64,000 bases of DNA from Phoenix dactylifera (taxonomy: Eukaryota; Streptophyta; Magnoliopsida; Arecales; Arecaceae), in contig NC_052395.1 of NCBI RefSeq assembly GCF_009389715.1, positions 25,345,482 to 25,409,481 of the forward strand, in the 5' to 3' direction. Below, in pieces: positions 3,585-30,159 of the stretch. The notes beneath the pieces are model-generated. The model was not told the DNA's origin, ran no database searches, and saw nothing but the letters and a program-made list of their open reading frames with translations. The stretch's first letter is position 1, and each line of letters starts with the position of its first letter. The position numbers and the translations under genes are program-made.

Positions 3585-3791
3585 GAGATCGTGCAAAATG
3601 GAGATATCGGCGTTCCGAGTTTTTGTGGCGGTCCGGCCTCGCTCGGTTCTATTTGCATCCGAGCAGGGTCGTATACACGAACTGGGCCAGGCCATCTGGG
3701 AGCATGCAGACACCAGGAGAAATTTATCACAGTTAGATAATTGTAAATAAGTCTCAACTTGACAATCGATGTGGGGGGATCCTTCGGGACA

Positions 3792-6700
3792 TCATTGGTA
3801 ATACACCCGAAGATTTTCGGAGCTCCAACTCCGAGGGATGGGAGTCCCATCAAGAGATTTTAGCTTGTAAGCTCCGGGTCGCTGGACACGTGCGATCCGG
3901 TAGGGTCCTTCCCAGTTCGGGGCCAGCTTCCCCTGCTCGGTCGGTTGGGAGGCCTCCGCCCTTCTGAGGACGAGGTCCCCCTCTTTAAAGGATTTGATCT
4001 TGACTCTGGCGTTATAGTACTGCACCGTCCTTTGCTGGTATTTTGCCATGCGAACTCGGACGGCCTCTCTTACTTCTTCGACCAAGTCGAGATTATTCCT
4101 GAGTTGCAAGGAGCTGGAGCTGGCATCAAAATGCTCTACCCTCGAAGAAGGGAGCCCGACCTCCAGGGGGATGACGGCTTCCGTCCCGTACGTCAGATTG
4201 AAGGGAGTTTCGCCGGTGGGCACCCGGAACGTGGTCCGGTAAGCCCAGAGGACGTTGTACAGGTCTTCGACCCATTGTCCTTTGGACCGGTCGAGCCTGG
4301 CCTTGAGCCCCTGCAAGATTGTTCGATTTGTTACCTCGGTTTTTTCATTTGTCTGCGGATGCGCGACCGAGGTGAAACGGTGGTCGATGCCGAGTTCGGA
4401 GCAGAACTCCCTGAAGCGAGCGTTGTCGAATTGGCGGCCATTATCTGATATGAGGATGCGGGGGAGCCCGAACCTGCAAATGATCGACTTCCAGACGAAG
4501 TCCCGCATCTTCTGCTCGGTGATTCGGGCAAGCGGCTCAGCTTCCACCCACTTCGTGAAATAGTCAATGGCGACAACGATAAATTTCCTTTGTCCAGTCG
4601 CCAAAGGGAATGGTCCCAGGATGTCAATCCCCTACTGGGCGAATGGCCAGAGGGAACTGATTGAGGTCAGTAGGGCCGAGGGTCGTCGTTGGATGCTAGC
4701 GTTCCTCTGGCACCGGTCGCACTTCTGGACGAAGTCCAGGGTGTCCTTCTGGAGTGTAGGCCAGTAATATCCTTGGCGCAGAATCTTGTGCGCTAGTGTT
4801 CGTCCCCCCAGATGGCTTCCACAAATCCCTTCGTGGACTTCGCGCATTGCATAATCCGCCTCGGACGGGCGGAGGCACCTGAGGAGGGGGAGGTGAAGGA
4901 CCTTCGATAGAGATTACCTTCGTACCATATGTACCGGGTGGCCAAGCGCTTGACTCGGCGAGCTTCTCGTTCGTCGCTGGGGAGGACATCATCCCGCAAG
5001 TAGCTGATGAGCTCGTCCGTCCAGCTTGGTTCAGCTTTGATGCAAAGGGTCGACTCAGGCTCCTCCGTGCTGGGTCTTTGGAGATACTCCAAGGCCGCTG
5101 CCTTCGGGAGTTCGCTCATGCGGGAAGACGCCAGCTTTGAGAGTTGATCTGCTCTGGAATTTTCCGTTCTAGCGATGTGTTGGATGTGGAAGGAGTTCAG
5201 AGCCGAGGTGAGGTCCCGCACCTTCCGGAAGTATTCTTGCATAGTGGGCTCTCTGGCCTCAAAATCACCCAAGATTTGGTTCACGACCAACTGGGAGTCG
5301 CTGAAGGCCCTTAGGTCTTTCACACCCAGCTCCCTGGCCAACTTGAGCCCGGCGACAAGTGCTTCGTACTCTGCTACATTGTTGGAGGTGGGAAATTCGA
5401 AGCGCAAGGCCTGCTCGGCGATCACTCCATCTGGACTGGTGAGCACGAGGCCTGCTCCGCTACCCCCCGAGTTCGAGGAGCCATCGACATGTAAAGTCCA
5501 GATCGGGCTCGGGGTCTGCTCGTCTGGAGCTGGCCTGGCTTCGGGCTCGTCTGGCACTGTGCACTCGACTATGAAGTCGGCGAGCGTTTGCGCCTTAATC
5601 GCTGGCCTGGGTCGGTACTCGATGTCGAACTCCCCAAGCTCGATGGCCCACTTTGTGGTCCGACCGGCGCGATCTGATCGCTGCAGGATCTGCTTCACCG
5701 GTTGGTCGGTTAGTACGGCTATAGTGTGGGCTTGAAAGTACGGCCGGAGCCTTCGAGCTGAGACGACCAGGGCGTAAGCGGTCTTTTCCAGCTTGGAATA
5801 TCGGGTCTCAGCACCCCTCAAGACCCGGCTTGTATAATAAACCGGCTTCTGGAGCTTGCTCTCCTCCCGGACCAGGACCGAGCTTACTGCTACAGGAGAA
5901 ACAGCTAGGTACAAGTAGAGGAGCTCGCCCTGGTGAGGCTTTGTGAGCAAGGGAGGAGAGGCGAGGAGATGTTTGAGCTCCTCAAAGGCTTGCTGACATT
6001 GGGCCGACCATAGGAAGTCTTTGGGCTTCTTGAGGGTCGCAAAGAACGGGAGGCAGCGCTCGGCCGATCGGGAGACGAATCTTCCGAGGGCTGCGACCCG
6101 GCCCGTAAGCCGCTGCACTTCCTTCACCGTCCTCGGTGGCGTCATCTCCTGAAGCGCTCGAATCTTCTCGGGATTGGCCTCGATTCCCCGCTGAGAGATC
6201 ACGAAGCCAAGGAACTTGCCCGAGGTAACTCCGAACGCGCATTTGGCCGGGTTGAGCTTCATTTGGTACCTTCGGAGTATGGAGAATATTTCGCTGAGGT
6301 CGGTCACATGGTCTTGCGCCACTTTGCTTTTTACTAGCATATCATCCACATAAACCTCCATGTTTCGGCCTATCTGATCTTTGAAGATCCGACTGACCAG
6401 CCTTTGATAAGTCGCTCCAGCATTTTTTAAGCCGAAGGGCATCACCTTGTAACAGTAAGTGCCCCCATCAGTGATGAAGGCAGTCTTCTCCTCATCCTCT
6501 GGTGCCATCCGGATTTGATTGTACCCGGAAAAGGCGTCCATAAATGTCTGCAGCTCGTGCCCCGAGGTGGAGTCCACGAGCCGGTCGATGCTAGGGAGCG
6601 GAAAGCTGTCCTTTGGGCAGGCCTTGTTCAGGTCGGTGTAGTCCACGCACATGCGCCATTTCCCGCTAGCCTTTTTGACAAGGACCACGTTGGCGAGCCA

Positions 6701-9202
6701 CTCCGGATAGGATATTTTCCGGATGAAGCCAGCCTTGAGGAGCTTATCAACTTCCTCAGCTACCGCCTGCTGCCGCTCTGGGGCGGTGTTACGCTTCTTC
6801 TGTCGCACAGGCTTACAAGGCTTCACCTGGAGTCGGTGGACCACGACCTCTGGATCTATCCCCGGCATGTCTGCTGGCGACCAAGCGAAGACGTCCGCGT
6901 TGTCCCGCAGGAAGTTGATGAGGCGATCCCTCTCGCGAGCGTCAAGGCCGGAGCCGACCTGCACGGTTAGCTCGGAAGAATTTTTTTGGAGGGGAACTCG
7001 AATGAGCAGCTCACCAGGCTCCACTCGATTCTTCTGCAGGCCGATCCGCGCCTCTAAGGTTTCGGCCGGGGGTTCATCTTTCGCTGTGGTCGACGCCTCG
7101 GCCGGCCGCCTCGCCTCATGGGTCGCCACGTAGCACCGTCTGGCTACCATCTGGTCTCCGCGGACTTCGCCGACTCCATGGCTGGTGGGAAACCGCATGA
7201 GCAAGTGGCGGGTTGAGACTATGGCTTGGAGAGCGTTGAGTCCTAGTCGCCCAAGGATGGCATTATAAGCCGAGGGCAGGCGCACCACGAGAAAATTCAT
7301 CTTCACGGTGCTCTCTCGGGGGGCGAGTCCGACCGTGACCAGGAGGTTGACCTCGCCCTCTACTGGGACTGAGTCCCCAGTGAAGCCGACCAGCGGGGCG
7401 TTCATCCTCCGCAGTTGATTTCCCGTCCTTCCCATTCTGGAATAGGCATCGAAATACAAAACGTTCGCCGAACTTCCATTATCAATCAAAATACGTTTTA
7501 CATTAAATTTGTTCACAACCATGGAGACGACCACAGCATCGTCATGGGGAGCTTCAACTCCCTTCAGGTCCTCATCTGAGAATGAGATGGCCTCCGAGGC
7601 GCGTAAGCGCTTAGGGGCAGTTCCTTCTGGAGCTCCTCCAGCCGAGGCCTCGCCTCGGATGGTGTTGATGGTGCCGACGATGGGCCTGTTGGCATTTGGA
7701 TCTTCGGGCTGTGGGGGATTCTCCACGGGCCTTCCTGCGGGCCAGTTCTGCACGAACCGGTCGAGCACTCCTCGGCAAATGAGTGCTTCGATCTCGTCCC
7801 GGAGCTGGAAGCATTCCTCCGTGTCGTGGCCGTGGTCCCGGTGGAAGCGGCAATACTTACGGGGGTTGCGCCAGGCCCCGGGATCCCGCCTCGGGGGCAG
7901 GGGTCGGAAGTAGTCGCGGCCCTCGATCTCCATGAGGATCTCGGTCCGGGGAGCGGTAAGGGGAGTGTAATTTTCGTACCTCCCGTTGGGTGTGCGGGGC
8001 CGTTGTGGTGGCCTCGGGCGAGGAGGGGATCTCTGCCGAGGCGGTCCTTGCAGCCGGGGTAAGTGCTTCAGGCGAGAGGGGCGCTCGGCTTGGTGCGGGG
8101 ATGGGCTTCTGGGGCGACCGCGGTCCTCGCGACGCCTTTTCTTAGAGGTCTGCTCGGCCCCGCTCCGCCTAGAAGCGACGGCTTCTTCAGCCTTCGCGTA
8201 CTTTCGCGCCCGAATCAACATCTCCGTGAAATCAGCGGAGAAATTCTTCTCGATGGAGAAGAGAAATCTGTAAGACCGGGCCCCGGTCTTTAATGCCGAC
8301 ATGGCGATCGACTGGTCGAGCTTCCGGACCTCCCACGTTGCAGCAGTGAAACGGTCCAGGTAGTCCCTGAGAGACTCTCCCTCCTTTTGCTTTATGTCAA
8401 GGAGGGAGTCGGAGGTCTGCCGTTGGGGTCGGCTAGCGGCGAAAGTGCTGGCGAACTGCCTGCCGAGCTGTTCGAAGGAGGAGACGGTGCTAGGCTTTAG
8501 CCCAGTGAACCAGAGCCGGGCTGCTCCTCGGAGTGTTGCTGGGAAGGCTTTACAGAGCAGGGCCCCCGTGGCTCCCTGCAGGGCCATCAAGGCCCGATAG
8601 CTTTCCAGGTGGTCAAGAGGGTCGGTCCTGTCACTGTAGGGCTCCACCTGGGGCATCTTGAACTTCGGCGGGACCGGCTCGTCCTCGATTTGCTGGGAGA
8701 AGGGGGACCGCGTGCTGAACTCGAAGTCACCATCGCGTCCCATCTTCCTGCCACGGAGCGCCTCAATCTGACGCTCCAGGTTCTCAACCTTCTTGTCAAG
8801 CTCATCGCTCGGCGGGATCGCCGCGACGGTGCGCCCTGGCGCAAGTCGTCCTGGGACCGACTCGGCTTCCGACGGTAGTGGCCAGTCTCCAGGGCCCCTT
8901 ACCGGGTGTTCTCCCCAGGGGGAGACGGGAACATGGTGATCTTGGCCGGGGAGGGGTGGTTCACTCGCAGAGGGCGCCGGTTGAACTGGGGCTGGAGGGG
9001 GCGGCATCGTCGGGACGCCCCTGGGCTGCAGGCCTTGGACAACAGCGGCCAAAGCCTAAACCTGCTGTACCAGGGCGTCAAACTGCTCCGGCCGAACTTG
9101 GGGAGTCGGATCAGCCGGAGGTGGCGAGTTCTGGACAGAATGTCCGGGGCTAGGTGGAGGACGTCGGGAGGCATTGGAAGCTCCCTTGCTTCTCAGTTTC
9201 AT
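3792..9202 (-). pseudogene. Tat gag-pol polyprotein with two stops and one frameshift
   Basis: Reading begins at the minus-strand ATG at 9202 (MKLRSKGASN). A TAG at 9058-9056 interrupts gag at codon 49, and the same frame then runs open to 4793. Order: gag core (FKMPQVEPYSDRTDPLDHL), CRFHRDHGHDTEEC segment, protease with IDNGSSANVL (about 7449-7494), reverse transcriptase with YVDD (6338-6355), RNase H, then a second RNase H starting WTLHVDGSS (about 5480-5505). Near 4880-4900 the frame shifts by one base within a C-rich run. The integrase zinc-binding HHCC segment follows in the new frame, a TAG sits at 4634-4632, and the DDE core (AIDYFTKW, SDNGRQF, downstream E) plus the NWEGPY C-terminal motif run to the stop at 3792. 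It cannot now make a complete polyprotein. Confidence 0.9.
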
Positions 9203-10027: not shown

Positions 10028-12377
10028 GGAAGTACCTAGTCTAACTTATATGTTGCTCTTACTTTCTCAAGCTTATCTTGATGAATTAGTCGATGGTGAA
10101 CTTTAAAAGAAATGAGGTTTGTTCTGTCACAGCTGAATTTGCTTACAGTAGGCTTTGGAATCATACCACATGAATAGCCTTTATGAAATTGAGTGTGAAT
10201 ATTTCTCAAATAGTTTTCTCAATGTGGTGACTCTGCTAAACCAGAAATACTTGAAAGAACAGCATAGTAACTAGTAAGAGACAGCATAGTATGAAGCCCT
10301 TAATGAAGTCGAGTATGAAGACTGGACTCAAACTCGCAAAAAAGCTTGGTTTCAAGTCTAACCCGAGCATGCCGGTGGGTTTTAAGTACAGCCCGGCCTC
10401 GTGGGGCACCAAAATGGGACATTGTACCCTACCGGTGACCGGGCTGCTATGGCATCATGACAGACTTTATTTTAACGTTTTACCAGATCTTTATTTTAGA
10501 AATTTATTATTGCATCGTAACGGTGGTTGTCCAAGTGGATCATCATGACAGACTTTTTCCCTTCCACTAGACACAAGTCCCGGGAGAGATGCCGATGCCG
10601 AAACCAAAACGTAAACCAACCAGAACTATAAAAAAAAGCATATAATATTGTAACAGAGAAAAGACAAGGAGCTTGTGATGGCTAGGATTCTAGACATTTT
10701 CTCAAGCCACATCAACCTAGGTCCCCACCGCGGAAGAAGTTCAATAGCAACTGATTCCTCTCATTGTCTCATGGTGGCCTTTCTAGGTAATAGTGTTGGT
10801 CTGAAGAAAACTAACCCCTTTAATTTCTTGGTTATGGTCAGCATCAAGGACAAGCTATGTGAAATAATTGTTCGCATCGTCATTAGATTGACGTTATAAA
10901 TGTGAGAACCCGTGCGAGCGTGTGTTTAGTCCCACATCGGTTATTCGCTGGGTAGATTTTGGGTACTTGTACAGGATCAAGGAATCCAAATAATACCTTC
11001 CGGCTAGCCATTTTGGGTGAGGTCCTGAGTTGTTACAAATGGTATCAGAGCGGACCCAGCCCATAACCTATGTGGACTAGGAGACACTGCAGCACGGATC
11101 CATTGGGGCTGACCACGGGCCAATCGTGGTATTTGTGATTAGATTTGAATAGTTTTGAACCCTTAGCCCGACGAGGACGTCAGGGCTTGAACGGGAGGAG
11201 TATGTGAGGATCCGTGCGAGCGTGTGTTTAGTCCCACATCGGTTATTCGCTGGGTAGATCTTGGGTACTTGTACAGGATCAAGGAACCCAAATAATACCT
11301 TCCGGCTAGCCATTTTGGGTGAGGTTCTGGGTTGTTACAAAAACTAATTTGTTTATTTGGACATGTCGGATTTGTCTATTTGAATTACTAAATTAATTAT
11401 AGATTTATTGAAAATTTTTTTTTTTTGTTAATCATAGGCCTTGCATGATATTTAGGGCACTACTCTAGGGCTCATGCGGCCGGTCACGTACCGGACCCGG
11501 ATGCTGGGTTCGGGGCGTGACAATAAACGTGCAACTTGGGGTCTAGCGTCATCTCTAAAGTCTGCTTTTGACCAGTTGCGAGATTTTCGTACCGAACACG
11601 CTATATTTCATTCAGTTGATGCACCGGTAAACACGATCTTGCTTGCTTACCATCCACAAGCACAGGACTCTTATGCACAGGTTTAATCACACCGCTTAAA
11701 ATTGAATACGCCATGAAAGTTTAACTCGAGCATGCTGGCGGGTTTCAAATTTCCAGCCTGAAAAATTAGCCCGGTTTCGGGATTGAACCCCAACGAAAAT
11801 TTTCGACTTCAAACGCCCTTCCCCACCTCTTTCCAACTCCTGTTTTCTCTATCTCGTGTGCTCTTATACCTCGCTATTTTAATGTTGTACCAGATCATTA
11901 TTTTAGAAATTTATTATTGCATCCTAACGGTCGTGGTTCAAGTGGATCAGCACGACGGACTTTTTCCTCTATCTTGAACAGGACGCAAGTTGGGGGAGAG
12001 ATGCCGAAACCAAAATGTAAACCAACCAGAACCATAAAAAAAAGCATATAATTTTGTAACAAAGAAAAGGAAAGAAGCTTGTAATGACTAGGATTCTAGA
12101 TATTTGTCTTAAGTCGCATCAAACTAGGTCCCCACTGCAGAAAAAGTTCGATAGCAACTGATTCCTCTCATGTTAGCCAAACTTGCAACTTGGAATCCAG
12201 CATTATCTCTAAAACCTGCTTTTCAACAGTAACGAGAGTCTCGTACCTGACACGCAATATTTTGTTTGATGACTTTAATACTGATTTGAAGGGAACAAGA
12301 AAAGTTTTGAACCAGAAGCAAACCATTTCTTTTTTATAAAATTCAGCCCGGCCCACCTTGACTGGCGCTATATTTTA
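10028..12377. other. NLR1 upstream block A, with an internal tandem promoter duplication
   Basis: Host sequence homologous to 58256-59859 upstream of NLR2. Within the block, 10470-10895 plus 11523-11705 form one copy and 11868-12240 plus 17268-17385 form a second copy of the same promoter-like text (GGTAAACACG, CCGAAACCAAAA and GGTTTAATCACACC motifs each occur twice). The same doubling exists in block B, so it predates the segmental duplication. No open gene was found here. Confidence 0.75.
10901..11522 (+). mobile_element. Chimeric TRIM / Del-type LTR insertion with ATAAA target duplication
   Basis: Starts with a 137-bp direct repeat (10901-11037) followed by a methionine-type primer-binding site (TGGTATCAGAGC at 11040). 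A second copy of the 137-bp repeat lies at 11203-11339, after a purine tract (GAACGGGAGGAG). This is a complete TRIM layout. The following 183 bp (11340-11522) match the last 180 bp of the solo LTR at 20998-23354 and end in GGGGCGTGACA. ATAAA flanks the whole block (10896-10900 and 11523-11527), not the TRIM alone. Block B near 59090 shows the site without the insertion. Confidence 0.78.
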
Positions 12378-12897
12378 GGGGAACTTGCTCAGCGGTCCAT
12401 TTATTGACTGAACTTTAACATTAAATCCCTATTGACCGGTTGTTTAACAACCGGTCCATATATATTTTAACATTACTTTATGGGACAAAAATGCCCCCGC
12501 CTCTTCCATTCCCACCGAAGAAGGAGAAGAAAAAGGCAGCCGCCGGCCACGGCCCACCCCCTCCCGCGCCAGCCGCCGGCCACGGCCCACCCCCTCCCGC
12601 GCCTGCCGCCGGCCACAGCCCGCCCCCTCCTGCACCCGCTGCCCCCTTCCGCGCCGCCGGAATTACCTCCGCCCCCACGGTGGGGAGGTGCCAAAGAAGA
12701 GGAGCCGCTGCCCCCCCCGGTGGCGCCATCCTGCGGCCGCCACCGTCCGACCCCCTTCCATAGCTGCCGGCCTCGCGAGAGGAGAAGGAAGAAGAAAGAA
12801 GGAGAAGGGAAGAAGAGAAGAAAAAAAGAAAAAAAAAAGAAAAAAAAGAAAATGAAAGAAAAAGAAGAAAAGAAAATAAAATAAAAATAAAAATAAA
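12378..12897 (+). repeat. Left inverted arm of the Mutator-like element
   Basis: From the tip: about 90 bp of AT-rich terminal repeat, an AAAATGCCCCC segment, a GC-rich block with three near copies of a GCCGCCGGCCACGGCCC-type unit (about 12540-12640), then a long purine tract (12776-12897). The same order in reverse complement is found in the right arm. The GC-rich block is Pro/Ala-rich if translated and could be a captured exon, but no family was recognised. Confidence 0.7.
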
Positions 12898-13023
12898 ATT
12901 AACTGTGTTCCTAGACAAGCTAACTGTGTTCACAAACAACTTAACTGTGTTCACAGACCTGGAGTCGACCCCTTAACAGCACGAGTCGACCCCTGCTCAC
13001 CTGGAGTCGACTCTCAGGCTTTC

Positions 13024-16000
13024 CTAGACAACTTAACTGTGTTCCCAGACAAGTTAACTGTGTTCCCAAACAACTTAACTGTGTTCTTAGACAACTGTGT
13101 TCCTAGACAAATTAACTGTGTTCCTAGACAAGTTAACTGTGTTCCCAAACAACTTAACTGTATTCTTAGATAACTGTGTTCCTAAACAACTTAACTGTGT
13201 TCACAGACAACTAAACTGTGTTCCTAGACAACTATGTTCCTAGACAAGTTAACTGTGTTCCCAAACAATTTAACTGTCTTCCTAAACAACTGTGTTCCTA
13301 GACAAGTTAACTGTGTTCCTAGACAACTTAACTGTGTTCCCAGACAAGTTAACTGTGTTCCTAGACAACTTAACTGTGTTCCCAGACAACTTAACTGTGT
13401 TCCCAGACAAGTTAACTGTGTTCCCAAACAACTTAACTGTGTTCCTAGACAACTGTGTTCCTAGACAAATTAACTGTGTTCCTAGACAAGTTAACTGTGT
13501 TCCCAAACAACTTAACTGTATTCTTAGATAACTGTGTTCCTAAACAACTTAACTGTGTTCACAGACAACTTAACTGTGTTCCTAGACAACTGTGTTCCTA
13601 GACAAGTTAACTGTGTTCCCAAACAATTTAACTGTGTTCCTAAACAACTGTGTTCCTAGACAAGTTAACTGTGTTCCTAGACAACTTAACTGTGTTCCCA
13701 GACAAGTTAACTGTGTTCCCAGACAAGTTAACTGTGTTCTTAGACAACTTAACTGTGTTCCCAGACAAGTTAACTGTGTTCCCAAACAACTTAACTGTGT
13801 TCCTAGACAAATTAACTGTGTTCCTAGACAAGTTAACTGTGTTCCCAAACAACTTAACTGTATTCTTAGATAACTGTGTTCCTAAACAACTTAACTGTGT
13901 TCACAGACAACTTAACTGTGTTCCTAGACAACTGTGTTCCTAGACAAGTTAACTGTGTTCCCAAACAATTTAACTGTGTTCCTAAACAACTGTGTTCCTA
14001 GACAAGTTAACTGTGTTCCTAGACAACTTAACTGTGTTCCCAGACAAGTTAACTGTGTTCCTAGACAACTTAACTGTGTTCCCAGACAAGTTAACTGTGT
14101 TCCCAGACAACTTAACTGTGTTCCTAGACAAGTTAACTGTGTTCCCAAACAACTTAACTGTGTTCCTAGACAACTGTGTTCCTAGACAAATTAACTGTGT
14201 TCCTAGACAAGTTAACTGTGTTCCCAAACAACTTAACTGTATTCTTAGATAACTGTGTTCCTAAACAACTTAACTGTGTTCACAGACAACTTAATTGTGT
14301 TCCTAGACAACTGTGTTCCTAGACAAGTTAACTGTGTTCCCAAATAATTTAACTGTGTTCCTAAACAACTGTGTTCCCAGACAAGTTAACTGTGTTCTTA
14401 GACAACTTAACTGTGTTCCCAGACAAGTTAACTGTGTTCCCAAACAACTTAACTGTGTTCCTAGACAAATTAACTGTGTTCCTAGACAAGTTAACTGTGT
14501 TCCCAAACAACTTAACTGTATTCTTAGATAACTGTGTTCCTAAACAACTTAACTGTGTTCACAGACAACTTAACTGTGTTCCTAGACAACTGTGTTCCTA
14601 GACAAGTTAACTGTGTTTCCAAACAATTTAACTGTGTTCCTAAACAACTGTGTTCCTAGACAAGTTAACTATGTTCCTAGACAACTTAACTGTGTTCCCA
14701 GACAAGTTAACTGTGTTCCCAAACAACTTAACTGTGTTCCTAGACAACTGTGTTCCTAGACAAATTAACTGTGTTCCTAGACAAGTTAACTGTGTTTCCA
14801 AACAACTTAACTGTATTCTTAGATAACTGTGTTCCTAAACAACTTAACTGTGTTCACAGACAACTTAACTGTGTTCCTAGACAACTGTGTTCCTAGACAA
14901 GTTAACTGTGTTCCCAAACAATTTAACTGTGTTCCTAAACAACTGTGTTCCTAGACAAGTTAACTGTGTTCCCAGACAAGTTAACTGTGTTCCTAGACAA
15001 CTTAACTGTGTTTCCAGACAAGTTAACTGTGTTCCCAAACAACTTAACTGTGTTCCTAGACAACTGTGTTCCTAGACAAATTAACTGTGTTCCTAGACAA
15101 GTTAACTGTGTTCCCAAACAACTTAACTGCATTCTTAGATAACTGTGTTCCTAAACAACTTAACTGTGTTCACAGACAACTTAACTGTGTTCCTAGACAA
15201 CTGTGTTCCTAGACAAGTTAACTGTGTTCCCAAACAATTTAACTGTGTTCCTAAACAACTGTGTTCCTAGACAAGTTAATTGTGTTCCTAGACAACTTAA
15301 CTGTGTTCCCAGACAAGTTAACTGTGTTCCTAGACAACTTAACTGTGTTCCCAGACAAGTTAACTGTGTTCCCAAATAACTTAACTGTGTTCCTAGACAA
15401 CTGTGTTCCTAGACAAATTAACTGTGTTCCTAGACAAGTTAACTGTGTTCCTAAACAACTTAACTGTATTCTTAGATAACTGTGGTCCTAAACAACTTAA
15501 CTGTGTTCACAGACAACTTAACTGTGTTCCTAGACAACTGTGTTCCTAGACAAGTTAACTGTGTTCCCAAACAATTTAACTGTGTTCCTAAACAACTGTG
15601 TTCCTAGACAAGTTAATTGTGTTCCTAGACAACTTAACTGTGTTCCCAGATAAGTTAACTGTGTTCCTAGACAACTTAACTGTGTTCCCAGACAAGTTAA
15701 CTGTGTTCCCAAACAACTTAACTGTGTTCCTAGACAACTGTGTTCCTAGACAAATTAACTGTGTTCCTAGACAAGTTAACTGTGTTCCCAAACAACTTAA
15801 CTGTATTCTTAGATAACTGTGTTCCTAAACAAGTTAACTGTGTTCACAGACAACTTAACTGTGTTCCTAGACAAGTTAACTGTGTTCCTAGACAAGTTAA
15901 CTGTGTTCCTAAACAATTTAACTGTGTTCCTAAACAACTGTGTTCCTAGACAAGTTAACTGTGTTCCTAGACAAATTAACTGTGTTCCTAGATAACTTAA

Positions 16001-16158
16001 CTGTGTTCCCAGACAAGTTAACTGTGTTCCCAAACAACTTAACTGTGTTCCTAAACAACTGTATTTCTAGACAACTTAACTTTGTTCACAGACAACTTAA
16101 CTGTGTTCCTAGACAAGTTAACTGTGTTCACAGACAACTTAACTGTGTTCACAGACCT
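13024..16158. repeat. 21-bp satellite with higher-order structure
   Basis: Roughly 150 head-to-tail copies of a 21-bp unit of the form TTAACTGTGTTCCTAGACAA with small variants (CCCAGAC, CCCAAAC, CACAGAC), plus 16-bp units that have lost TTAAC. A marker variant with CAATTTAACTG recurs near 13266, 13624, 13966, 14344, 14624, 14918, 15236, 15572 and 15914, giving a higher-order repeat of about 280-380 bp. The 21-bp length keeps frames open on both strands; this is not coding. Three related units also occur left of a short spacer, at 12897-12957. Confidence 0.95.
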
Positions 16159-16310
16159 GGGGTCGACCCCTGCTTACCTGGAGTCGACTCTCTCAGGCTT
16201 TCCAGAGAGCTGTTTTTTGCCTGATTTCAGGGGTCGACTCCAGCTCTTTAGGGGTCGACCCCAGCTCTTCAGGGGTCGACCCCTGAAGAGCTGGGGTCGA
16301 CCCCAGCTCA
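16159..16310. repeat. GTCGAC-rich segment with a 54-bp perfect palindrome
   Basis: Six GTCGAC sites lie in 150 bp. The stretch 16251-16304 is a perfect inverted repeat centred between 16277 and 16278, with 27 bases on each side that pair completely. The left part (about 16159-16245) resembles the U3 of the Copia LTR near 24540-24590 and 24718-24735 (shared GAGTCGACTCTCTCA and CAGAGAGC). A shorter related segment lies at 12958-13020 at the other end of the satellite. Confidence 0.85.
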
Positions 16311-16469
16311 GCATAAGTCTACAATAATTTTCTAATAACACTTAACTGTGTGCACAGTCGAAATAACTGTGTTCTGGGGTAGAATAAGTGTGTTCCGGGA
16401 TGATTTAAATATGTTCCAAGCTTATTTAACCGTGTGTCATGTTAGATTAAGTGTGTTCCAAACTTATTT

Positions 16470-17267
16470 AATTGTTCCAAGCTTATTTAACTTTATTTTT
16501 ATTTTTTTCTTTTTTTCTTTTTTTTTCTTTTTTTTTCTTCTCTTCTTCCCTTCTTCTTCTTTCTTCTTTTTTCTCCTTCCGCGAGCTGGCGGCACACAGT
16601 TAAGTTGTCTGCGAACACAGTTAACAGGACTGTGCACACAGTTAAGTGTTCTTAGAAAATTGTTGTAGAAGTGAGCGAGTCGACCCAAGATTTTCACAAG
16701 TCGACCCCAGCAGAGCAGGAGTCGACCCCAGTTCAAACTTTTTCTTTTCTTTTTCTTTTTTTTCTTCTCTTCTTCCCTTCTTCTTCTTTCTTCTCTTCCC
16801 GCGAGGCCGGCGGCGCCGGAAAGGGGCTGGGCCACGGCGGACGCTGGAGGAGGGCGGGCCGTGGCCGGCGACAGCCGCAGGACGCGGGACAGCGCCCTTC
16901 TTCGTCTTCTTCGGCACCTTCCCACCATGGGGGCAGCGGCGGAGGCATTCCCGGCGGCGCGGCCGCGGGAGGGGGCTCGGGAGGAGGCGAACCGGGCCGG
17001 CGGCGGCCGCGGGAGGGGGCAGGCCGCGGTCGGCAGCAGCCGCGGCTGGGAGATTACAGTTTGGAAAGTCTCTGAAATTCTTCTTCTTCGGAAGGATGGG
17101 ATATCATGAGGGAAGGGGCATTTTCGGTATCTTATTTCAAAATAAAAGGGGCTCAAGGACCGGGAATTACAGTTTGGAAAGTTTCTGGACCGGTTGTTTT
17201 AGATTTAATTAACAAGGACTTTTTGTTATAGTGGAGTCTTTAGAGGGATGGGAAAGTCAATTACCCT
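16470..17267 (-). repeat. Right inverted arm of the Mutator-like element
   Basis: Reverse-complement counterpart of the left arm: AT-rich tip, AAAATGCCCC segment, GC-rich block (16797-17050) and pyrimidine tract. It differs by carrying two pyrimidine tracts (about 16490-16580 and 16735-16800) with GTCGAC-containing spacer between them, so part of this arm appears duplicated. Confidence 0.65.
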
Positions 17268-17473
17268 ATATTTTATGCAAATGATGCATTCGTAGACGCG
17301 GTCCTCTTTCCTTTCTGTCCACGAGCACGCGGTCTTCAATTGATGCACCTTGACTATAGGTTTAATCACACCACTTAACATTGCAAGTTAGGAAGAAGGC
17401 CGAGCGAGCAAGCTTTCTATCTTCAGGTCACAGAGAACAAGACTACCACTTTGCAGCTGGAGTGTCCTCCAAT

Positions 17474-20400
17474 ATGGATCTGGGGATGATGGGAATGATG
17501 GTCGGAGGATGGTTTGCATCCCACGTCGCAGATAAACTGGCCGACAAGGTTTCGCTGCATTTGGACGACCGATATGATCTGCGCACGGGTGCGAAGGCTA
17601 TGGCGGAGGATGTGAAGGCTAGACTTCCTCGTATCCGAGCCGTGATCCAGGCAGCGGAGGGGAGGCCGATCAGGGACCCAACGCTGGCCGCATGGCTGAG
17701 GCAACTCAAAGATGCTGCCTACGAGGCTGACGACGTGCTGGATGAGCTTGAATTCAAGGAGCTTCATGATAAGCTACACGGCAAGAGCAAGGTGAGCGAC
17801 TTCGTATCCCCCGCTGTTAAGCTTCTCAAGCATTTTATTATGTCCGACGATAACCTGAAAAACTTGAAAAATCTTGCGGGAAATCTTGAAAAGATTTATC
17901 TTGATATCAATTGTATGGAAGAACAATTAAAGGACTACAACTCACAGCAGAGAAGTGTGACCAGAGAGACCAGCTCGATTATCCAGGACATTGTGGTTGG
18001 GAGAGACAAAGAAAGAGACATGATATTAGATGTGCTGTTGCATTTAGCTGATGAACCGGAATCTAGCATCAAATGTGGGACTGGGAGTAGTAGCTACCCG
18101 AGTCTTGGTGTTCTTCCTATAGTAGGCATTGGGGGTGTTGGCAAGACTGCTGTGGCTCAACTTATTTATAATGATGAAAGAGTAGCAAGGCATTTTGAGC
18201 TGAGGAAGTGGGTCTATGTGTCCGATAATTTTGATGTCAAGCGGATTTCTAGAGAGCTGGCATATGACTCGGTGCACGACCGAATCCCGGACGATATTAG
18301 TTTGAATGGCATTCTAGGGAAAGTTAGAGATGCCACGAGGAACAAGAGGTTTTTGCTTGTCCTTGATGATGTGTGGGACGAGACAGGTAGCAATTGGAGA
18401 GAACTCCGTGGTGTCTTAACATCTGGAGCGAAAGGAAGCATGGCTCTGGTGACAACACAAAGTCCAATAGTAGCAGAAGTTATGGGCACGATGGACCCGA
18501 TAGAACTGAAGAGCCTACAGGAAGATGACTACTGGATACTTTTCGAACATTGTGCGTTCGGTGAAAAAATTCTTGAGGAAGAGCGAAGGGAAAAATTGCA
18601 AATAATAGGAAGGAAAATATCTGAAAAACTCCATGGTTTACCTCTAGCTGGGAAGGTACTGGGAAGTTTATTGAACTCCAAACTGGATGAGGATTACTGG
18701 AAGATGATCTTAGAAAGTGAGTGGTGGGAACAAGAATATGTTTTAGATAATATCCTTCCATCTCTGGCTTTAAGTTACGAACACTTGAATGCAAATTTAA
18801 AGCAATGCTTCGCTTACTGTTCCATATTTCCCAGGAGCTATGTTTTCGAAAAAGATCGGTTAGTCCAGATGTGGATGGCTCAAGGTTTTATCCAGAACAA
18901 GAGTCGGGTAAGAATGAGAATGGAGGACATCGGGGGTCAGATATTTGACGAATTAACTCGCAGGTACTTCTTTCTACCAACTCTGACCGACAAGTATGTG
19001 ATGCATGATCTGATCAGAGAATTGGCAGTTTTTGTTTCGTTGGATGAATGCTTGGTCATCAGCGATGAGAAAGGAGAAATTCCAGAGACAATTCGACACC
19101 TGACTCTTAGGACTGATAAAAAAATGAATGCAATTATGGACACGTGTAGACTTCAAAACCTACGGTCCATTTTATTCTTTGGTGATTATGATTCTGAAAA
19201 TTTTTATAGTTTTCTTGATGGCATGTTAAAACAATCAAAAAGCCTGCGTCTCTTGGATTTATCTTACAGTCACCTGAAGCTGGATAAGCTACCGGATGCT
19301 ATCAGTGGGTTATCACATCTAAGATACTTAGATGTCTCCTGCACTAAGATCAGACACCTGCCCAAATCATTTGGTAGGCTTTGCCATCTTCAAGTTCTGA
19401 GGATGCCATCCTGCCACCTTAAAAGGTTACCTGAAGACATGAACAAATTAATCAACTTGCGGCATTTATACGGGGAGCAGACACAATTTCTCTAATTACT
19501 GGGATTGGAGATCTTATCAACCTTCAAGAATTAGAGGAATTCCGAGTCACAAAGAAGAGGCGACATGAGATTGGAGAGTTGAAGGGCTTGAGAAATCTTC
19601 GGAGACGGCTTGCGATCAAGAATCTTGAGAATGTCAATAGTAAGGAGGAGGCCATGGAGGCGATGTTGAAAGACAGAGAACATCTAACTGCATTGAATTT
19701 AATGAAGAAATTAGATGCAAGAAGTCTTCCTGATGCGGAGAAGGAGATATTTGAAGGCCTCCAACCACATCCAAGTCTTAAAGAGCTGACCATCAGGGGC
19801 TATGAAGGTATCGAATTTCCAACTTGGTTGGTGGAAAGCAACTTTCTCGCCAATCTAGAATTTATTTCTCTTGATTCTTGTGTCAAGTTGGAGAGTCTGC
19901 CGCCATTAGGGCAGCTGCCTTTCCTCAAGGAACTTCATCTCGCTAACATGCCTGCCGTAAAACGAATTGGTCGTGAATTTTATGGTGACACTGGTGTGGC
20001 ATTTCCATTCCTCGAGGCACTAACATTTAAGGGCTTCTGGAAATGGGAGGAGTGGTTGGAACCAGATGGCGCACAATTTTTACCTCGCCTCCGTATACTC
20101 GAACTCCGTGGTTGCGACAAGCTAAGGAAAGTACCCCTCCTCTTCCAGTCATCGCTTGTACAGCTCAGCATCAAACACTGTGGTGACTTCGGCAGTGCAC
20201 TGCCCGGATGTTTGCAGAGTCTCACCTTTCTCACCCAGCAACAGATCAAGGATTACCACGCCCAACTATCTCTTTGTTTATCAAATTTGAGTGCCCTCAA
20301 ACATTTGGAACTTCGGAATTGCAGGAAGATGAAGTTAGTTGGGGGGTTACAGTTTCTTACTACTCTTGAAAGCCTAGATCTCAGAGCATGTCCTAAGATC

Positions 20401-20877
20401 ATCGAGTCCTCAGAACCTGTGCAGCTCCGCGAGGAGCAGGGACTGCGAACTCTCAATCGTCTCACCATAGACGACACGATCCTACTTCAAAATCTGTGGA
20501 TTCTGTTGGGAAGCCTCCCCTCACTGCAACGGATGCATATTCGTTGGTGTCATGGTATGACCAACTTTACCAGGGAACAGGAGCTATGGTTCCAGCAACT
20601 GACATCCCTTCAAGATCTGGAGATTTATTACTGCGAGAACGTAGAAAGCCTACCTACTTCTTTGGCAAATTTTCCCTCCATCAGGAAGTTACATATATTC
20701 TACTGCCCCAAGGTTAGCTCACTGCCAGGGAATGGCCTGTCTACTTCGCTCAAAGAATTACACATCGATGGATGCCCTTTGTTGAAGGACCGATGCCAAA
20801 GAGGAGGAGCTGATTGGCCAAAGATTGCTCACATACCTTTCATACGTATTGATACCAAAACCATACAAATGCTGTGA
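17474..20877 (+). pseudogene. NLR1: CC-NB-ARC-LRR resistance gene with a frameshift
   Basis: Near-duplicate of NLR2. Start is the ATG at 17474 (MDLGMMGMMVGG); the frame is open upstream but lacks an ATG. Order: Rx-type coiled coil with a DAAYEADDVLDEL motif (about residue 80), P-loop GIGGVGKTAVAQ (residue 218), kinase-2 FLLVLDDVWDE, GLPLAGK, an RNBS-D-like CFAYCSIFPRSY segment, MHD in YVMHDL, then leucine-rich repeats. Against NLR2 one base is missing near 19475, giving a stop at 19493-19495 after about 673 residues. The remaining LRRs continue in another frame to a stop at 20875-20877. The first part could still give a truncated CC-NB protein with a few LRRs. The promoter is displaced by the 4.9-kb element ending at 17267. 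Confidence 0.9.
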
Positions 20878-20997
20878 AAAGAGAATTCGATGCCGCTCCT
20901 ACATCCATTCTTCAGGTAACCTTCAAGTCCTGTACATAGATACATGTGACTCGCATAATCATATACATGGATTAATTGGAGATTCTCATTAATGCCC

Positions 20998-23354
20998 TGT
21001 AATACCCCGGAGAAAAAAAAAAAAAAAAAAAAGGAAGGTTTGACGGGCCGGCCCGAAATGACCGGGCCCATTCCCCTTATTACGATCGTGCCCTAGGCAC
21101 GATCGTGGAAGAGGAGGGTTGCAAGGGGGGCGGCGGCGGCGTGAGGACGATCGCCGGAGGAGACCCAGCGCCGGAGCTGAGAACCGGCCGGCCGTGGAGG
21201 AAGCCGGAAAGCCTTTCCTCCCTTCAAGAGGATCCCCACCAATCGCACGAAGAGGCCTCGGATCCGTGGGTTTACTCACGGATTTCTCCATCGATTCCTC
21301 GCCGGAAAGGTCACCGGAGCACGCCGTCGGACCGAGGTAAGTGGGGCTCCCTTCCTTATGCTTCTTGTTCTGGATTTTGGGTGGCGTTGGAGGGGTTTTT
21401 GGTCGGTGAATCGTCGGAGAAGAGCCCGAAACAGGGTACCCCTGTTTCGGCCTCTCTCTTCCCGATCCCGCCGCCGCCGGTCGCCGGGTTGGCCGGGATT
21501 CATGGCAGGTGGGTTGGTCGGGTCTGTGAGGGGGTCGGAGAGGGTTTGTATGTGATGAGGGAGGGTGGATCCGAGGTCTTCTTCCTCGGGATCCCATCCT
21601 CTCCTCCTCTTCCCCTCGTCGGTTGGCCACCAGCGGCGACGACGGCGGTTGGGTGCCGTCGGGTGGAGGCCGAGCCACCATCACGGTGGCTGTGAGGGTC
21701 CGTGCGGGTCCTCCGTGGATGATGGGGGAGGAGGAAGGGAGGAAAGAGGGCTTCCGGTTCTTGGGAGAAGAAGAGGAAGAGACCACCTCTTCCTCCCTCT
21801 CTTGGCCGGCCACCATCGTCGGCGACTGCAACAGTAGCGGCCGGCGATGGTTCAGCCAGTGATGGCCGTGATGACAGGTTGGGGAGGGAGAGGGCACAGC
21901 CACCATGGCTGCTTTCCTTGGACCAAGGTAAATAGAAGGGAGATGTACTCCCAACCATGAAGGATTTTCCTTTCTTTTGGTCTTTTCACTGGGACCAGCC
22001 ATCGTCGCCGGCATGGCAGCGGCCCCGGCTGGCGACGACACAGGCTGGTGGTACAAGGGTGGGGGTCGAGCCACCCCGACTGCCCTAGATCTGGAAGGAT
22101 TGAGATGTTTGGGGACCTGGTGATGGACCCCATAGTAGATGTGAATTATGTTTTAGAATATTTAAATATTGAATAATTTAGTCTGTGAAATATAATTGAT
22201 GTTGTAGGGGAAGAGTCAGCGGTACCAGGAGGTTTTGATCAGGAGACTCAGCACCCCAGCTCGTAGGTTGTGATCCGGATCCGTATTTGAGTCAGTCCAC
22301 AAATTTCTGTAAGAATTCCCACATCTGAGCACCTCTATGTATATATTTGATTTATCGTTGGATTTATTTTATAATTATGTTGTTATTTGTTTTATGAGCT
22401 GATATGACACATATGAGGTGTGCATTTTGTTTATTGTGAAAATATTGAAATAATTAAATTGGAAAGAAATGACATATTTTTGAGAATTTATGAAAATATG
22501 TGATGTGAGTAAAATGTGGTTAAAACATGTAAACTAGACATGTAAATTGGGTTGGACTAACCTTGTCATGAGATAGCCTCTACGAGCTTATGCGTAGGAT
22601 AGCTGCCACGAGCTGATGCGTGGGATAGCCTCCACGGGCTTACACGTGGGATAGCCTCTACGAGCTTATGCGTAGGATAGCCTCCACGGGCTTACGCGTG
22701 GGATAGCCTCTACGAGCTTATGCGTAGGATAGCCTCCACGGGCTTACGCGTGGGATAGTTGCCACGAGCTTATGCGTGAGATTTGTGCAGTCTTGGACTG
22801 GGTCATGGTCTCGGTTAGTCCAAAGCCAGAAGTGAAAAACTTTGAAACTTGGGAATCAGAGTAATATGTGAATGGATCACATAATGTGAAAAAGGATTTA
22901 TGTATATGTACTGATATATACACTTGTTGTTTGTTGAGTTTTTGAAATGATGAAATGACATTTATTTGTTACTTTGATGATTTTATCATTATTACTGTGT
23001 ATGGCTGTTGGGATTCTTACTGGGCTGGAAAAGCTCATACTACACTTACATTTTTTTTCAGAGGCATTGGATTCGTAGAATCTGTCGGGTGGGACAAGAA
23101 GTAAGCTCGATCTGGAATCAGACTGCTAGATAGTTAGAAGCAGCTTATCTTTTATTGATGAACATTTAAAAATCTTGTAATTGAACCGATTGTTTATTTG
23201 GACATGTCGGATTTGTCAATTTCAATTAATTAATTAGTTGTGGATTTATTGAATTGTTGTTTATCTTAGGCCTTGCATGATCTTTAGGGCACTGCTCTAG
23301 GGCTCATGCGGCCGGTCGCGTGCCGGACCCGGGAGTTGGGTTCGGGGCGTGACA
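20998..23354 (+). mobile_element. Solo LTR (2357 bp) of a Del/Tekay-like gypsy element
   Basis: Starts TGTAATACCCCGG and ends GGGGCGTGACA, flanked by a perfect 5-bp duplication TGCCC (20993-20997, 23355-23359). No primer-binding site follows and no coding region is present, so it is a solo LTR left by recombination. The first 1.1 kb is GC-rich. Its end matches 11340-11522 and resembles the ends of the LTRs at 34465 and 38799. It sits about 120 bp after the NLR1 stop and 55 bp before the PIG-X start codon. Confidence 0.9.
22571..22785. repeat. 26-bp minisatellite of small hairpins inside the solo LTR
   Basis: Eight tandem 26-bp units beginning GGATAGC. Each has an inverted repeat of five bases. 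Units alternate between CTACG...CGTAG and CCACG...CGTGG, so the variable base changes on both sides of the stem. Confidence 0.88.
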
Positions 23355-24357: not shown

Positions 24358-25255
24358 TGTTGAGAAAAATGTGCCTCGAAACTCGAAACGACTGCAAATT
24401 GAATTCGGCTCAAGTTTGCTTGAAAAAAAAGTCTGTGCCAACTGAATGGAGTCGACTCCTGCAGAGCTGGAGTCGACTCCTATGAAGCTTGAGTCGACCC
24501 CAGGGATGAGAGGGTCGACTCGCATCTGCCACAGTGAAGAAACAGAGAGCAGTTTTCTGGGTTGCTTGCAGGAGTCGACTCCAGTCCTGCAGGAGTCGAC
24601 TCCAGTCCTGCAGGAGTCGACTCCAGCTTTGCAGGAGTCGAATCCAGTCATGCAGAAGTCGACTCCAGCTTTGCAGGAGTCGACTCCAGTCCTGCAGGAG
24701 TCGACTCCAGCTCTGCAGGAGTCGACTCTCTCAGAAAGACAGAACGTGCCAGTTTCGGTGCTGATACTTGGAGTCGACCCGAGGATGTCCGAGTCGACTC
24801 GAACTTATCAGGAGTCGACCCCTGAAAGTGAGGAGTCGACTCCTGATCACGGGATTGATTGAAACGGTGGCAAGATGGGTTTTTTTTTGACTTAGGGTTT
24901 TGTAGGGAAGTTTCCTTATGTGTTGAAAACCTATAAATAGGTTTTTTTGTGAACCCTAGAGAGGATGAGAGCGGCTGTAGTGAGTTTCTTTTGGAGTCCT
25001 ATCTCTCTTGTAAGCCCTAGGTGTGCAATCTCCAACAGGAAGAGAGATCATTGTAACCCTTGCTGAATATATTGAATCTGTGCGTGTGGCCTTCGTGGAC
25101 GTAACCCGTATTGGGGTGAACCACGTAAAATTGTTGTCTTTGTGATTGTTTGATTTTATTCTCTACTTCTTCTTCTTCTCGATTCGTCTTTCCGCAATTT
25201 GGATCCAGAAAGGGAATAGTACGATCGAGAGGGTGAGTGCTTTCATCCCGCAACA
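24358..25255 (+). repeat. 5' LTR of the Copia element (898 bp)
   Basis: TGTTGAG...GCAACA. U3 carries about sixteen GTCGAC-centred palindromes (24449-24845), many as perfect GGAGTCGACTCC in 21-bp tandem units. TATAAATA at 24932-24939 is a likely promoter. R/U5 contains a TTCTTCTTCTTC run. Confidence 0.92.
24571..24730. repeat. 21-bp palindrome array in Copia U3
   Basis: Eight consecutive 21-bp units, most with the 12-bp palindrome GGAGTCGACTCC; a few have one changed base. The 3' LTR has seven units at 29491-29630. All lie upstream of the LTR TATA box. Confidence 0.9.
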
Positions 25256-25270
25256 ACTAGTATCAGAGCT
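25256..25270 (+). other. Primer-binding region of the Copia element
   Basis: Directly after the 5' LTR the sequence reads ACTAGTATCAGAGCT. This is the initiator-methionine type site (usual TGGTATCAGAGC) with A in place of the first G. Confidence 0.7.
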
Positions 25271-25287: not shown

Positions 25288-28200
25288 ATGGCTGACGAAG
25301 GAAGATTGAGGATAGAGAAATTCAACGGACAGAACTTTGGTGTGTGGAAGATGCAGATGGAAGATTACTTGCTCTCAAAGGATCTGGATCTACCACTGGG
25401 CGGAGAAGAAGCGAAGCCGACAGACATGCCGTCGGAGAAGTGGGAGCGTCTTGATAAGAAGGCGCTCGCCGCTATCCGTTTGTCCTTGGCATCGGAGATC
25501 CTCGCCAATATATCCAAAGTAAAGACTGCAAAAGATTTGATGGACACACTGGCTTCCATGTATGATGAGCCAACAGGAGCGAACAAGGTATTCCTGATTC
25601 GACGATTATTCACTTTGAAGATGAGAGACAGTGGGAGTGTTCATTCACATCTGAGTGAATTCAATACCCTATGTGCCCAATTGGAATCTGTGAAGATCAC
25701 GTTCACTGATGAGGTGAAGGCGTGGGCTCTTCTAGGTCAGATGCCTGAAAGTTGGGAAGGCTTTATCACGGCTGTTAGTAATTCTTCGGGAAAGACTACA
25801 GCGAGGTTTGATGAAGTGGTAGCTCTTATTCTGAGTGAAGAGGCTCGAAGGAAAACCCTGGATCCATCAGCAAGTTCATCTGGGAACGCGCTGGCTTTTG
25901 AAGAACGTGGAAGGACTTCAAAGAAGGGAGACAGAAATAGGGGTGGACGATCCAAGTCTAGAAACAAGTCTAGACCTCTTGGAAAGTGCTGGAATTGTGG
26001 GCAGAAGGGTCACTTGAGAAAAGACTGCAAAGTGTCGAAGAACAATGGTGGTTCTGACACTAAAGCAAGTGCTAATTTAGCCGAAACTGCAAGTGAAGAT
26101 GATGCCCTGATACTTTCCTGTGATATTCATCCAGAGTCGTGGATAGTCGACTCAGGTGCCTCGTTCCATGCTACTGGAAACAAGGCAATCATCTCAAACT
26201 ATGTTGCAGGTGATCACGGCAAGGTGTATCTTGGTGATGGAAACAGTTGCAACATCGTAGGGAAGGGAGATGCTCAGATAAAGACATCAAGTGGGATGAC
26301 TTTAACTCTGAAAGATGTGCGACATGTACCCAAACTGGCTCGAAATCTGATTTCGGTAAGTCAGTTGTCGGATTTGGGGTTTGTGACCACCTTCAATGAT
26401 GATGCTTGGAAGATCATTAAGGGAGCCTTGGTGATTGCTCGAGGTGCAAGGTCAGGAACACTATACATGACAGCTGATACTGATTCCACCGTCAGTACTG
26501 CAAATCCGACTGTTGATGCAAGGACATGGCACATGAGACTTGGCCACATGAGTCAGAAAGGGATGAAGGTGATGATGACTAAAGGAAAACTGGGAGATCT
26601 GAAATCTGTGGATTTGAAATTCTGTAAAGATTGTGTACTGTCAAAGCAGAAGAAGGTCAGTTTTTCAAAAGGAGGTAGTACCAAGAAAAATTCTAAGTTG
26701 GAACTCGTACATACTGACGTGTGGGGACCAACTCAAGTGGCTTCTCATGCAGGAGCAAGGTACTATGTCACGTTCATCGATGATGCTACCCGAAAGCTAT
26801 GGGTCTACTTCTTGAAGCACAAATCCGATGTATTTGAGAAGTTCAAGAGGTGGAAGGCTCTAGTGGAGAATGAGACAGGTCAGAGATTGAAGTGTCTCAA
26901 GTCTGACAATGGGGGCGAATACTGCAGTGATGAGTTTGAGGTTTTTTGTGCCTCAGCTGGAATTCGAAGACTGAAGACGGTTCCAGGAACGCCACAGCAA
27001 AATGGCGTTGCAGAACGCATGAACCGCACCATCAACGAGCGGGCACGATGCATGAGGCTTCATGCGGGGTTGCCGAAGATTTTTTGGGCGGAAGCGGTCA
27101 GTACAGCAGTGTATCTGATCAACAGAGGGCCTTCAGTTGCATTGGAGCTTGGACTGCCGGAGGAAGCATGGACTGGGAAAGAGGTGAAACTATCTCACTT
27201 GCGTACCTTTGGTTGCATCTCTTACGTGCTCGATACTGCAGACAATCGAACCAAGCTGGATGCAAAGTCAAAGAAGTGCACATTCATTGGGTACGGTGGT
27301 GATGATTTTGGATACCGACTCTGGGATGCGACAGATCGGAAAGTCATCAGGAGCAGAAATGTTGTATTCAATGAAGAGGTTCTGTACAAGGACCTGCAGC
27401 AACAGACGGGCCAAGGCAACAAAGCTGTAAAATCGGAATATGCAGAGCTGGATGATGAAACAATGTCTCGAGACGATGAAGAAGTTGCTGAGCCAGTGGG
27501 AGAAGCACAGCAAGAAGAAGAACTGCCAGCTGATATTCCGATTGCTTTGCGCAAGGGTAAAAGAAACAGAAAAACTCCGTCTAGGTATGCTGACTCCCTA
27601 CAATACTTGTTGCTTACGGATGGTGGTGAGCCAGAAAGCTATAAGGAGGCTTTACAGATCGAAGCCAGTGACAAGTGGAAGCTTGCCATGGATGATGAAA
27701 TGGATTCCCTATCATCTAACAGGACGTGGGACTTGGTTCCACTTCCGAAGGGGAAGAGAGCTTTGCACAACAAGTGGGTATACAGACTAAAGCTTGAACC
27801 AGATGGTTCTGAGAGGTTCAAAGCGAGACTTGTTGTCAAGGATTTTCAGCAGAAGGAGGGCATTGATTTTGACGAGATCTTTTCTCTAGTTGTGAAGATG
27901 TCTACTATCCGGATGGTGTTGAGTATAGTGGCAGCCAAAGACTTACATCTTGAGCAGCTTGACATCAAGACTGCATTTTTACATGGCGACCTTGAAGAGG
28001 AAATCTACATGAAGCAGCCAGAAGGATATGTAGTGAAGGGGAAGAAAGATTGGGTGTGCCGACTTCAGAAAAGTTTGTACGGGTTGAAACAAGCACCTCG
28101 TCAGTGGTACTTAAAGTTTGATCAATTTATGCTGAAGAATAAGTTTCAGAGGTGTAATGGTGATCATTGCTGCTACTTTAAGGGATTGAAAAGCTCATAT

Positions 28201-30154: not shown

Positions 30155-30159
30155 ACTAG

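Follow-up and report, generated by a model that had tools for sequence, protein, structure and literature searches.

A putative Mutator-like element carrying a higher-order 21-bp minisatellite array upstream of a resistance gene in Phoenix dactylifera

Introduction

MuTAnT, a Mutator-like transposon of Medicago, is characterised by long, modular inverted arms of the foldback type, GGGG termini, 9-nt target-site duplications, insertion near genes and many non-autonomous copies (PMC4486113). The same source calls a 9-nt duplication typical for Mutator-like elements (MULEs) and cites the Arabidopsis foldback element FARE, which also has 9-nt duplications, as being counted among them. Here we describe an element of similar architecture in the date palm, Phoenix dactylifera. 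It occupies positions 12378-17266 of a stretch of 64,000 bp, referred to as the window (contig NC_052395.1 of assembly GCF_009389715.1, positions 25,345,482 to 25,409,481 of the forward strand), and lies directly upstream of the resistance gene NLR1, the first of two related genes in the window, NLR1 and NLR2. Most of the element is a tandem array of a 21-bp unit. Comparisons with published elements, here and below, refer to excerpts of the papers cited. MuTAnT differs from the palm element in its length of ~200 bp to >1.6 kb and in targeting TA repeats, and no large higher-order array is described for it in the excerpt of PMC4486113.

Tandem repeats within foldback arms are known from animals. 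Tm1, a Mutator/Foldback element of Meloidogyne, is similar to the palm element in its 9-bp duplications and in composite arms with short tandem repeats and a purine-rich motif, but differs in having 1-9 repeat units per arm, a Phantom-like transposase in some copies and arms that are 93% alike on average (PMC3169594). Tetris, a foldback element of Drosophila virilis with 8-9-bp duplications in complete copies, has long arms whose internal tandem repeats have grown to arrays of satellite size (PMC4079207). However, the Tetris unit is 220 bp long, is present in both arms and is related to them, whereas the palm units are of 21 bp, lie almost entirely on one side and have no relation to the arms.

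Short tandem arrays, sometimes lengthening, are also observed in plant retrotransposons with long terminal repeats (LTRs), from which satellites have arisen in Lathyrus (PMC7004042) and in the Tat lineage (PMC10794571). These carriers belong to class I, whereas the palm array is carried by a DNA transposon and accompanied by a palindrome module common with a copia LTR. Tnat1 and Tnat2 of Arabidopsis are likewise transposable elements with central tandem repeats, differing in units of 60 or 240 bp (PMC10794571). With Tm1, Tetris and MuTAnT published as relatives in kind, the principle is already known, and what is striking is the share of the element taken up by the array, 64-73%. As far as the excerpts reach, the palm element differs from MuTAnT, FARE, Tm1 and Tetris in this share, in one-sidedness, in higher-order structure and in LTR-like palindromes. 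No paper joining Mutator-like elements with satellites or higher-order repeats, or MULEs with minisatellite arrays, was found in a search of literature available without subscription. Reviews on transposon-derived satellites name no MULE (PMC9659126, PMC6947457, PMC12628747), the four occurrences of 'Mutator' in the consulted text of PMC9659126 concerning silencing and references.

Results

The stretch at 12378-17266, 4,889 bp in length, is an insertion with target duplication into a genuine empty site. In the BLAST alignment within the window, the unit is absent from the matching position at NLR2. It is bordered by an exact 9-bp direct repeat, TATATTTTA, at 12369-12377 and 17267-17275 (+ strand), which is present as a single copy at 59854-59862 (+) in the empty target site upstream of NLR2, between matching flanks. 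Identity is 87.9% between 11616-12377 and 59105-59862 on the left and 92.9% between 17266-20968 and 59853-63561 on the right, and the two flank matches overlap at NLR2 on 59853-59862, that is, on the duplication itself. Since both copies and the empty site have a C immediately before them, the duplication is of 9 or 10 bp. Exact copies of TATATTTTA number four on both strands of the window against 0.50 expected, the remaining one being located in the left arm of the element at 12461. As NLR2 keeps the empty site, the insertion would postdate the separation of NLR1 and NLR2; the alternative, traceless loss of a copy at NLR2, appears less economical.

The ends of the unit form inverted arms of ~0.5 kb each. 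The left arm (12378-12771, +) and 16800-17266 in reverse complement align over 378 pairs, of which 275 (72.8%) match, with 85 gap columns, giving a score of 191 that was reached by none of 1000 shuffles in which composition was kept within 20-bp blocks (maximum 95). Without reverse complementation the right arm scores 40, a value reached by 18 of the 1000 shuffles. The left arm is composed of an outer part to ~12500 and a GC-rich inner part with 33-bp repeats (12537-12630), followed by an inner purine-rich tract (12772-12898, +), and the right arm (16738-17266, -) of a pyrimidine tract, a GC-rich part and the terminus. A separate comparison of the outer ends, 12378-12490 (113 bp) on the left with 17090-17266 (177 bp) on the right, gives a score of 44, the best of 1000 shuffles reaching 33. 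The inner purine tract and the reverse complement of the pyrimidine tract (16738-16799) score 99 against a maximum of 91, a match of low complexity and poor evidence for arms. A partial second copy of the inner arm, a pyrimidine tract with a short GC stub, is present in the right end (16491-16591, -); in it, 16512-16570 is 93% alike to 16739-16797 in direct orientation, and the reverse complement of 16493-16585 is 86% alike to 12772-12866.

A 9-bp duplication together with long inverted arms is, among plant DNA transposons, indicative of a Mutator-like element. Both features are present here, the duplication with 9 bp (10 with the preceding C) and the terminal inverted repeats, often long in MULEs, with ~0.5 kb at 72.8% and an outermost part that is weakly alike. 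With the 9-bp duplication, the left end reads GGGGAA and the right end, inward on the other strand, GGGTAA. The structure, comprising the 9-bp duplication, long inverted arms, GGG termini and insertion near a gene, supports a Mutator-like assignment. No transposase family was detected by Pfam in the 19 stop-to-stop frames of at least 90 aa that overlap the element, which fits a non-autonomous copy, and the element would therefore move only with help. Fifteen of these frames are without a match at E 0.1 and four repeat-rich ones gave weak matches below the cut-off, so that a captured host gene fragment, the feature of Pack-MULEs, is likewise not indicated by any Pfam match above cut-off in the 19 frames. 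The best of the weak matches, CtsR (E 0.00015, 22.1 bits against a cut-off of 23.1), was taken as chance of repeated letters. A low-complexity frame across the right arm matched nothing at E 0.01 among 7988 candidates scored, and neither Rfam at gathering scores nor a tRNA scan gave a hit in the window. The sole foreign likeness found in the element is to a copia LTR. The original prediction had proposed a Mutator-like unit of 4.9 kb with a 9-bp target duplication, inverted arms of several hundred bases and an empty site at NLR2; all of this is borne out, the class by structure only, as is the proposed start of the unit, while its end moves from 17267 to 17266 when the duplication is taken as 9 bp.

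The region between the arms is dominated by a 21-bp minisatellite. Tandem Repeats Finder reports an array at 13021-16150 (+) of period 21 with 157 copies and a score of 3593, corresponding to 64% of the length of the element, or ~73% when measured from the first to the last forward core with the intervening palindrome blocks counted. The unit, termed A, is TTAACTGTGTTCCTAGACAAC on the + strand. Its 9-base core, with one mismatch or none, occurs 162 times from 12902 to 16450, compared with an average of 0.4 in shuffles, and three inverted cores are observed at 16592, 16613 and 16634; 162 of the 165 cores in the element therefore share one orientation. The rest of the window contains four such cores and only 10-bp matches to a query of three A units. 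In addition to the main array, outlying A units are located at 12899-12956 (+; 12900-12955 with period 21 in Tandem Repeats Finder), decayed units at the right edge at 16340-16490 (+), where the A consensus scores 46-50, values reached by 0 of 300 shuffles, and inverted units beside the right arm at 16592-16665 (-). Cutting 12895-16500 at ACTGTGTTC, with two mismatches tolerated, yields 164 pieces, of which 127 are 21 bp long, 34 are 16 bp long and three are longer, the 16-bp pieces being the 21-bp unit minus 5 bp.

The array has true higher-order structure. The order of unit variants recurs from nine anchors at 13162, 13520, 13862, 14241, 14520, 14815, 15131, 15468 and 15805, defining blocks of 279-379 bp (spacings of 358, 342, 379, 279, 295, 316, 337 and 337 bp), each of which corresponds arithmetically to 11-15 units of 21 bp plus 3-4 of 16 bp. 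The 200-bp cores at the nine anchors differ pairwise by 1-5 mismatches, with a mean difference of 1.5%, and the core at the last anchor has 10 gap columns relative to the others. Recurring homogenised blocks are the pattern expected from growth and homogenisation by unequal exchange. The array had been called a 3.1-kb satellite of 21 bp with higher-order repeats. Tandem arrangement and homogenised higher-order copies are indeed present, as in a satellite, but the name is less apt, as the size of the unit (21 bp) and of the array (3.1 kb) fits a minisatellite, the term to be used until shown otherwise.

The origin of unit A was not revealed by comparison with the arms, the copia LTR or gypsy tandem repeats. 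None of eight comparisons (two A variants against four regions) exceeded shuffles, each score being reached by at least 88 of 300. A two-unit A pattern was found in no viral and no prokaryote contig, as expected for plant DNA. A 99-aa frame through the A units matched two metagenome proteins at E 0.0017 and E 0.0019, the likeness of 55-57% covering 37-38% of the query and lying in a short repeat of 7 residues; these proteins were taken as unrelated, and A as a coding repeat was discarded.

The A array is flanked by a second 21-bp repeat, termed B, of GTCGAC palindromes, that shows no likeness to A (479 of 500 shuffles score as well). The 12 GTCGAC sites of the element are arranged in four blocks, 12964-13006, 16162-16183, 16233-16296 and 16679-16721, with exact 21-bp steps inside each. 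The left B block (12957-13020, no strand assigned, as for all B blocks) has sites at 12964, 12985 and 13006, the right blocks (16153-16309) at 16162, 16183, 16233, 16254, 16275 and 16296, and the palindromes adjoining the right arm (16677-16735) at 16679, 16700 and 16721. The A-B junction is identical on both sides of the A array, the right block lacking exactly 21 bp. The window has 55 GTCGAC sites in all; besides the 12 of the element, a copia element at a distance of 7 kb has 30 in its LTRs, and 13 are located elsewhere. This copia element has an open reading frame at 25288-29178 and LTRs that are 96.8% identical, at 24358-25260 (5') and 29278-30159 (3'; both +, BLAST limits). Each LTR holds 15 sites, mostly in exact 21-bp steps, the exceptions being one step of 20 per LTR, a single step of 42 in the 5' LTR and wider spaces separating the blocks.

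Similarity between element and LTR is not confined to the motif. Positions 16203-16322 of the element match 29463-29583 of the LTR at 74% over 121 columns (E 6e-18), a likeness that exceeds the palindrome and begins in the non-repeated stretch CAGAGAGC. The B consensus scores 110 against the copia LTR, compared with a maximum of 34 in 300 shuffles, and 35 against gypsy repeats, compared with a maximum of 32. Thus, one minisatellite module is common to two transposon classes, the copia LTR and the DNA element. The two LTRs of a retrotransposon are identical at insertion. Here their arrays have 7.7 and 6.7 copies, the 3' LTR having one 21-bp unit fewer, and since they now differ by one unit, B arrays too change in 21-bp steps. 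The B palindromes flanking the A array were probably acquired from a copia-type LTR, this direction of transfer being the one that we infer.

Folding of the element as DNA differs between its parts. A perfect palindrome of 54 bp is present at 16251-16304, and the surrounding 16222-16322 is predicted to form a strong hairpin (-41.6 kcal/mol, z -11.25); 16490-16635, containing the partial arm and the inverted units, gives z -3.40. In contrast, a 101-nt piece of the A array (13037-13137) folds no better than its shuffles (z 0.28). The large foldback that had been proposed could consequently be formed by the arms, the 54-bp palindrome and the three inverted units, but would not be expected of the array itself, with 162 of 165 cores pointing one way. 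Seeding of satellites elsewhere and attraction of silencing to NLR1, which had also been proposed, would be conjectural, and no second copy of the element was observed.

Discussion

The insertion, arms, array structure and shared palindromes are most readily combined in a non-autonomous, foldback-type Mutator-like DNA transposon in which a minisatellite expanded, a reading to which we assign a probability of roughly 75%. Several points weigh against it. Assignment to Mutator would follow from structure and not from a named family, the outer ends appear less alike than expected for a recently mobile element, and the arms have GC-rich and purine-rich parts of low complexity. In addition, a second copy of the arms was not found in the rest of the window, where other matches are pyrimidine tracts only.

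Transposase supplied in trans would have cut and pasted the 4.9-kb unit into the AT-rich 9-bp site before NLR1, after duplication and separation of NLR1 and NLR2. A short stretch of 21-bp units inside the element would have grown by unequal exchange or slippage, single units being amplified first, some of which lost 5 bp and became 16 bp long. Blocks of 14-19 units would then have been amplified whole, producing higher-order copies with cores ~1.5% apart between decayed edges, and the flanking 21-bp GTCGAC palindromes would have been taken from a copia-type LTR. The timing of array growth relative to insertion is presumptive.

A refinement that overlaps with this reading, and that we consider to have slightly less than an even chance of being correct, is a foldback element of the Tm1 or Tetris kind. 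The repeat would then be part of the terminal arms, the left block having expanded and the right having stayed at three units. A and B units adjoin both arms, the three right-hand A cores are inverted and a second partial arm is present inside the right end. The arms of Tm1, which also creates 9-bp duplications, consist largely of 13-15-bp repeats (PMC3169594), and it is the 220-bp repeats held in the arms of Tetris, with its 8-9-bp duplications, that grew to satellite arrays (PMC4079207). However, nearly all A cores (162 of 165) are in one orientation, the order of A and B beside the arm differs between the two ends of the element, and A is unlike the arms, whereas the Tetris repeat shares 37 bp with its arm.

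Growth in place is also to be distinguished from capture of a piece of ordinary chromosomal satellite, much as gene fragments are captured by other Mutator-like elements. Chromosomal satellites commonly have higher-order structure, and the lack of likeness above shuffles between A and the arms or copia LTR is compatible with an outside source. Capture is nevertheless unlikely, as growth in place would better account for the decayed edges, the outlying units and the inverted units next to the arms, and the rest of the window offers only the 10-bp matches to the three-unit query and four single cores. Least probable by far is an array inserted by break repair with a short duplication and without any transposon, the arms representing chance low-complexity likeness. 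Purine/pyrimidine and GC tracts do abound in the arms, whose likeness is only 73%, but the arm score of 191 compares with 95 for the best shuffle and 40 in the wrong orientation, and the 9-bp duplication is exact at a clean empty site.

Returning to the Mutator-like transposon with an expanded minisatellite, a more far-reaching proposal is that a module phased at 21 bp moves between transposon classes. The GTCGAC palindromes of the copia LTR and of the element would then be the same minisatellite, and the DNA transposon a chassis on which a second 21-bp repeat grew into a higher-order satellite that transposition can carry into gene-rich DNA. We regard this as doubtful; if correct, the palindromes common with the copia LTR would show tandem modules crossing transposon classes. 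The birth of a satellite would be captured at three stages within a single mobile unit, as outlying units on their own, as an array of period 21 bp and as higher-order blocks that were amplified, and the transposon holding them has inserted into a resistance-gene cluster. Should the arms be present in further copies whose arrays differ in size, satellite growth in a plant DNA transposon could be watched.

Neighbouring genes and other repeats

NLR1 (17474-20877, +) is a CC-NB-ARC-LRR gene with Pfam matches to the NB-ARC, Rx_N, WH_DRP and LRR families and a frame shift at ~19477. Read against NLR2, it continues from frame 2 into frame 1, the two pieces being 91.6% and 83.3% identical to NLR2, and its first open part, 673 aa in length, stops early within the LRR region. 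NLR2, also a CC-NB-ARC-LRR gene, encodes a protein at 60061-63468 with 93% identity over its full length to an RGA4-like protein of Phoenix dactylifera, the best coconut and oil palm proteins reaching 70-74%.

The distance from the element to the NLR1 ATG (17474) is 207 bases with the right duplication counted, the same as that from the empty site to the NLR2 ATG. TATATTTTA resembles a TATA box, and one may speculate that, if it is one, the core promoter was kept and only upstream DNA displaced. The original prediction had placed the element in a resistance-gene promoter. Its position is indeed upstream of NLR1, but NLR1 is frame-broken and other upstream changes exist. A regulatory effect of the element on NLR1 is therefore only weakly indicated: given the frame break and the other upstream differences, it is not readable from a comparison of NLR1 with NLR2. 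More than one cause is conceivable for any difference between the two genes in expression or marks, since NLR1 is broken and 10901-11615 upstream of it has no collinear counterpart at NLR2. Two copies of a 140-bp stretch (10900-11039 and 11202-11341, 95.7%) are involved in this upstream region, as is a piece of 174 bp that resembles 23190-23354 at 85%.

Other retroelements are present in the window. A gypsy-type frame at 4793-9007 (-) contains RVT_3, a second RNase H-like domain, in addition to RT_RNaseH, and a tandem array of 84-/28-bp units at 3033-3594, on the 3' side of this frame, is reminiscent of Tat-lineage elements with variable 3' repeats. A set of small tandem repeats that is found both at 34587-35443 and at 38911-39767, 4,324 bp apart, suggests the two LTRs of another retroelement.

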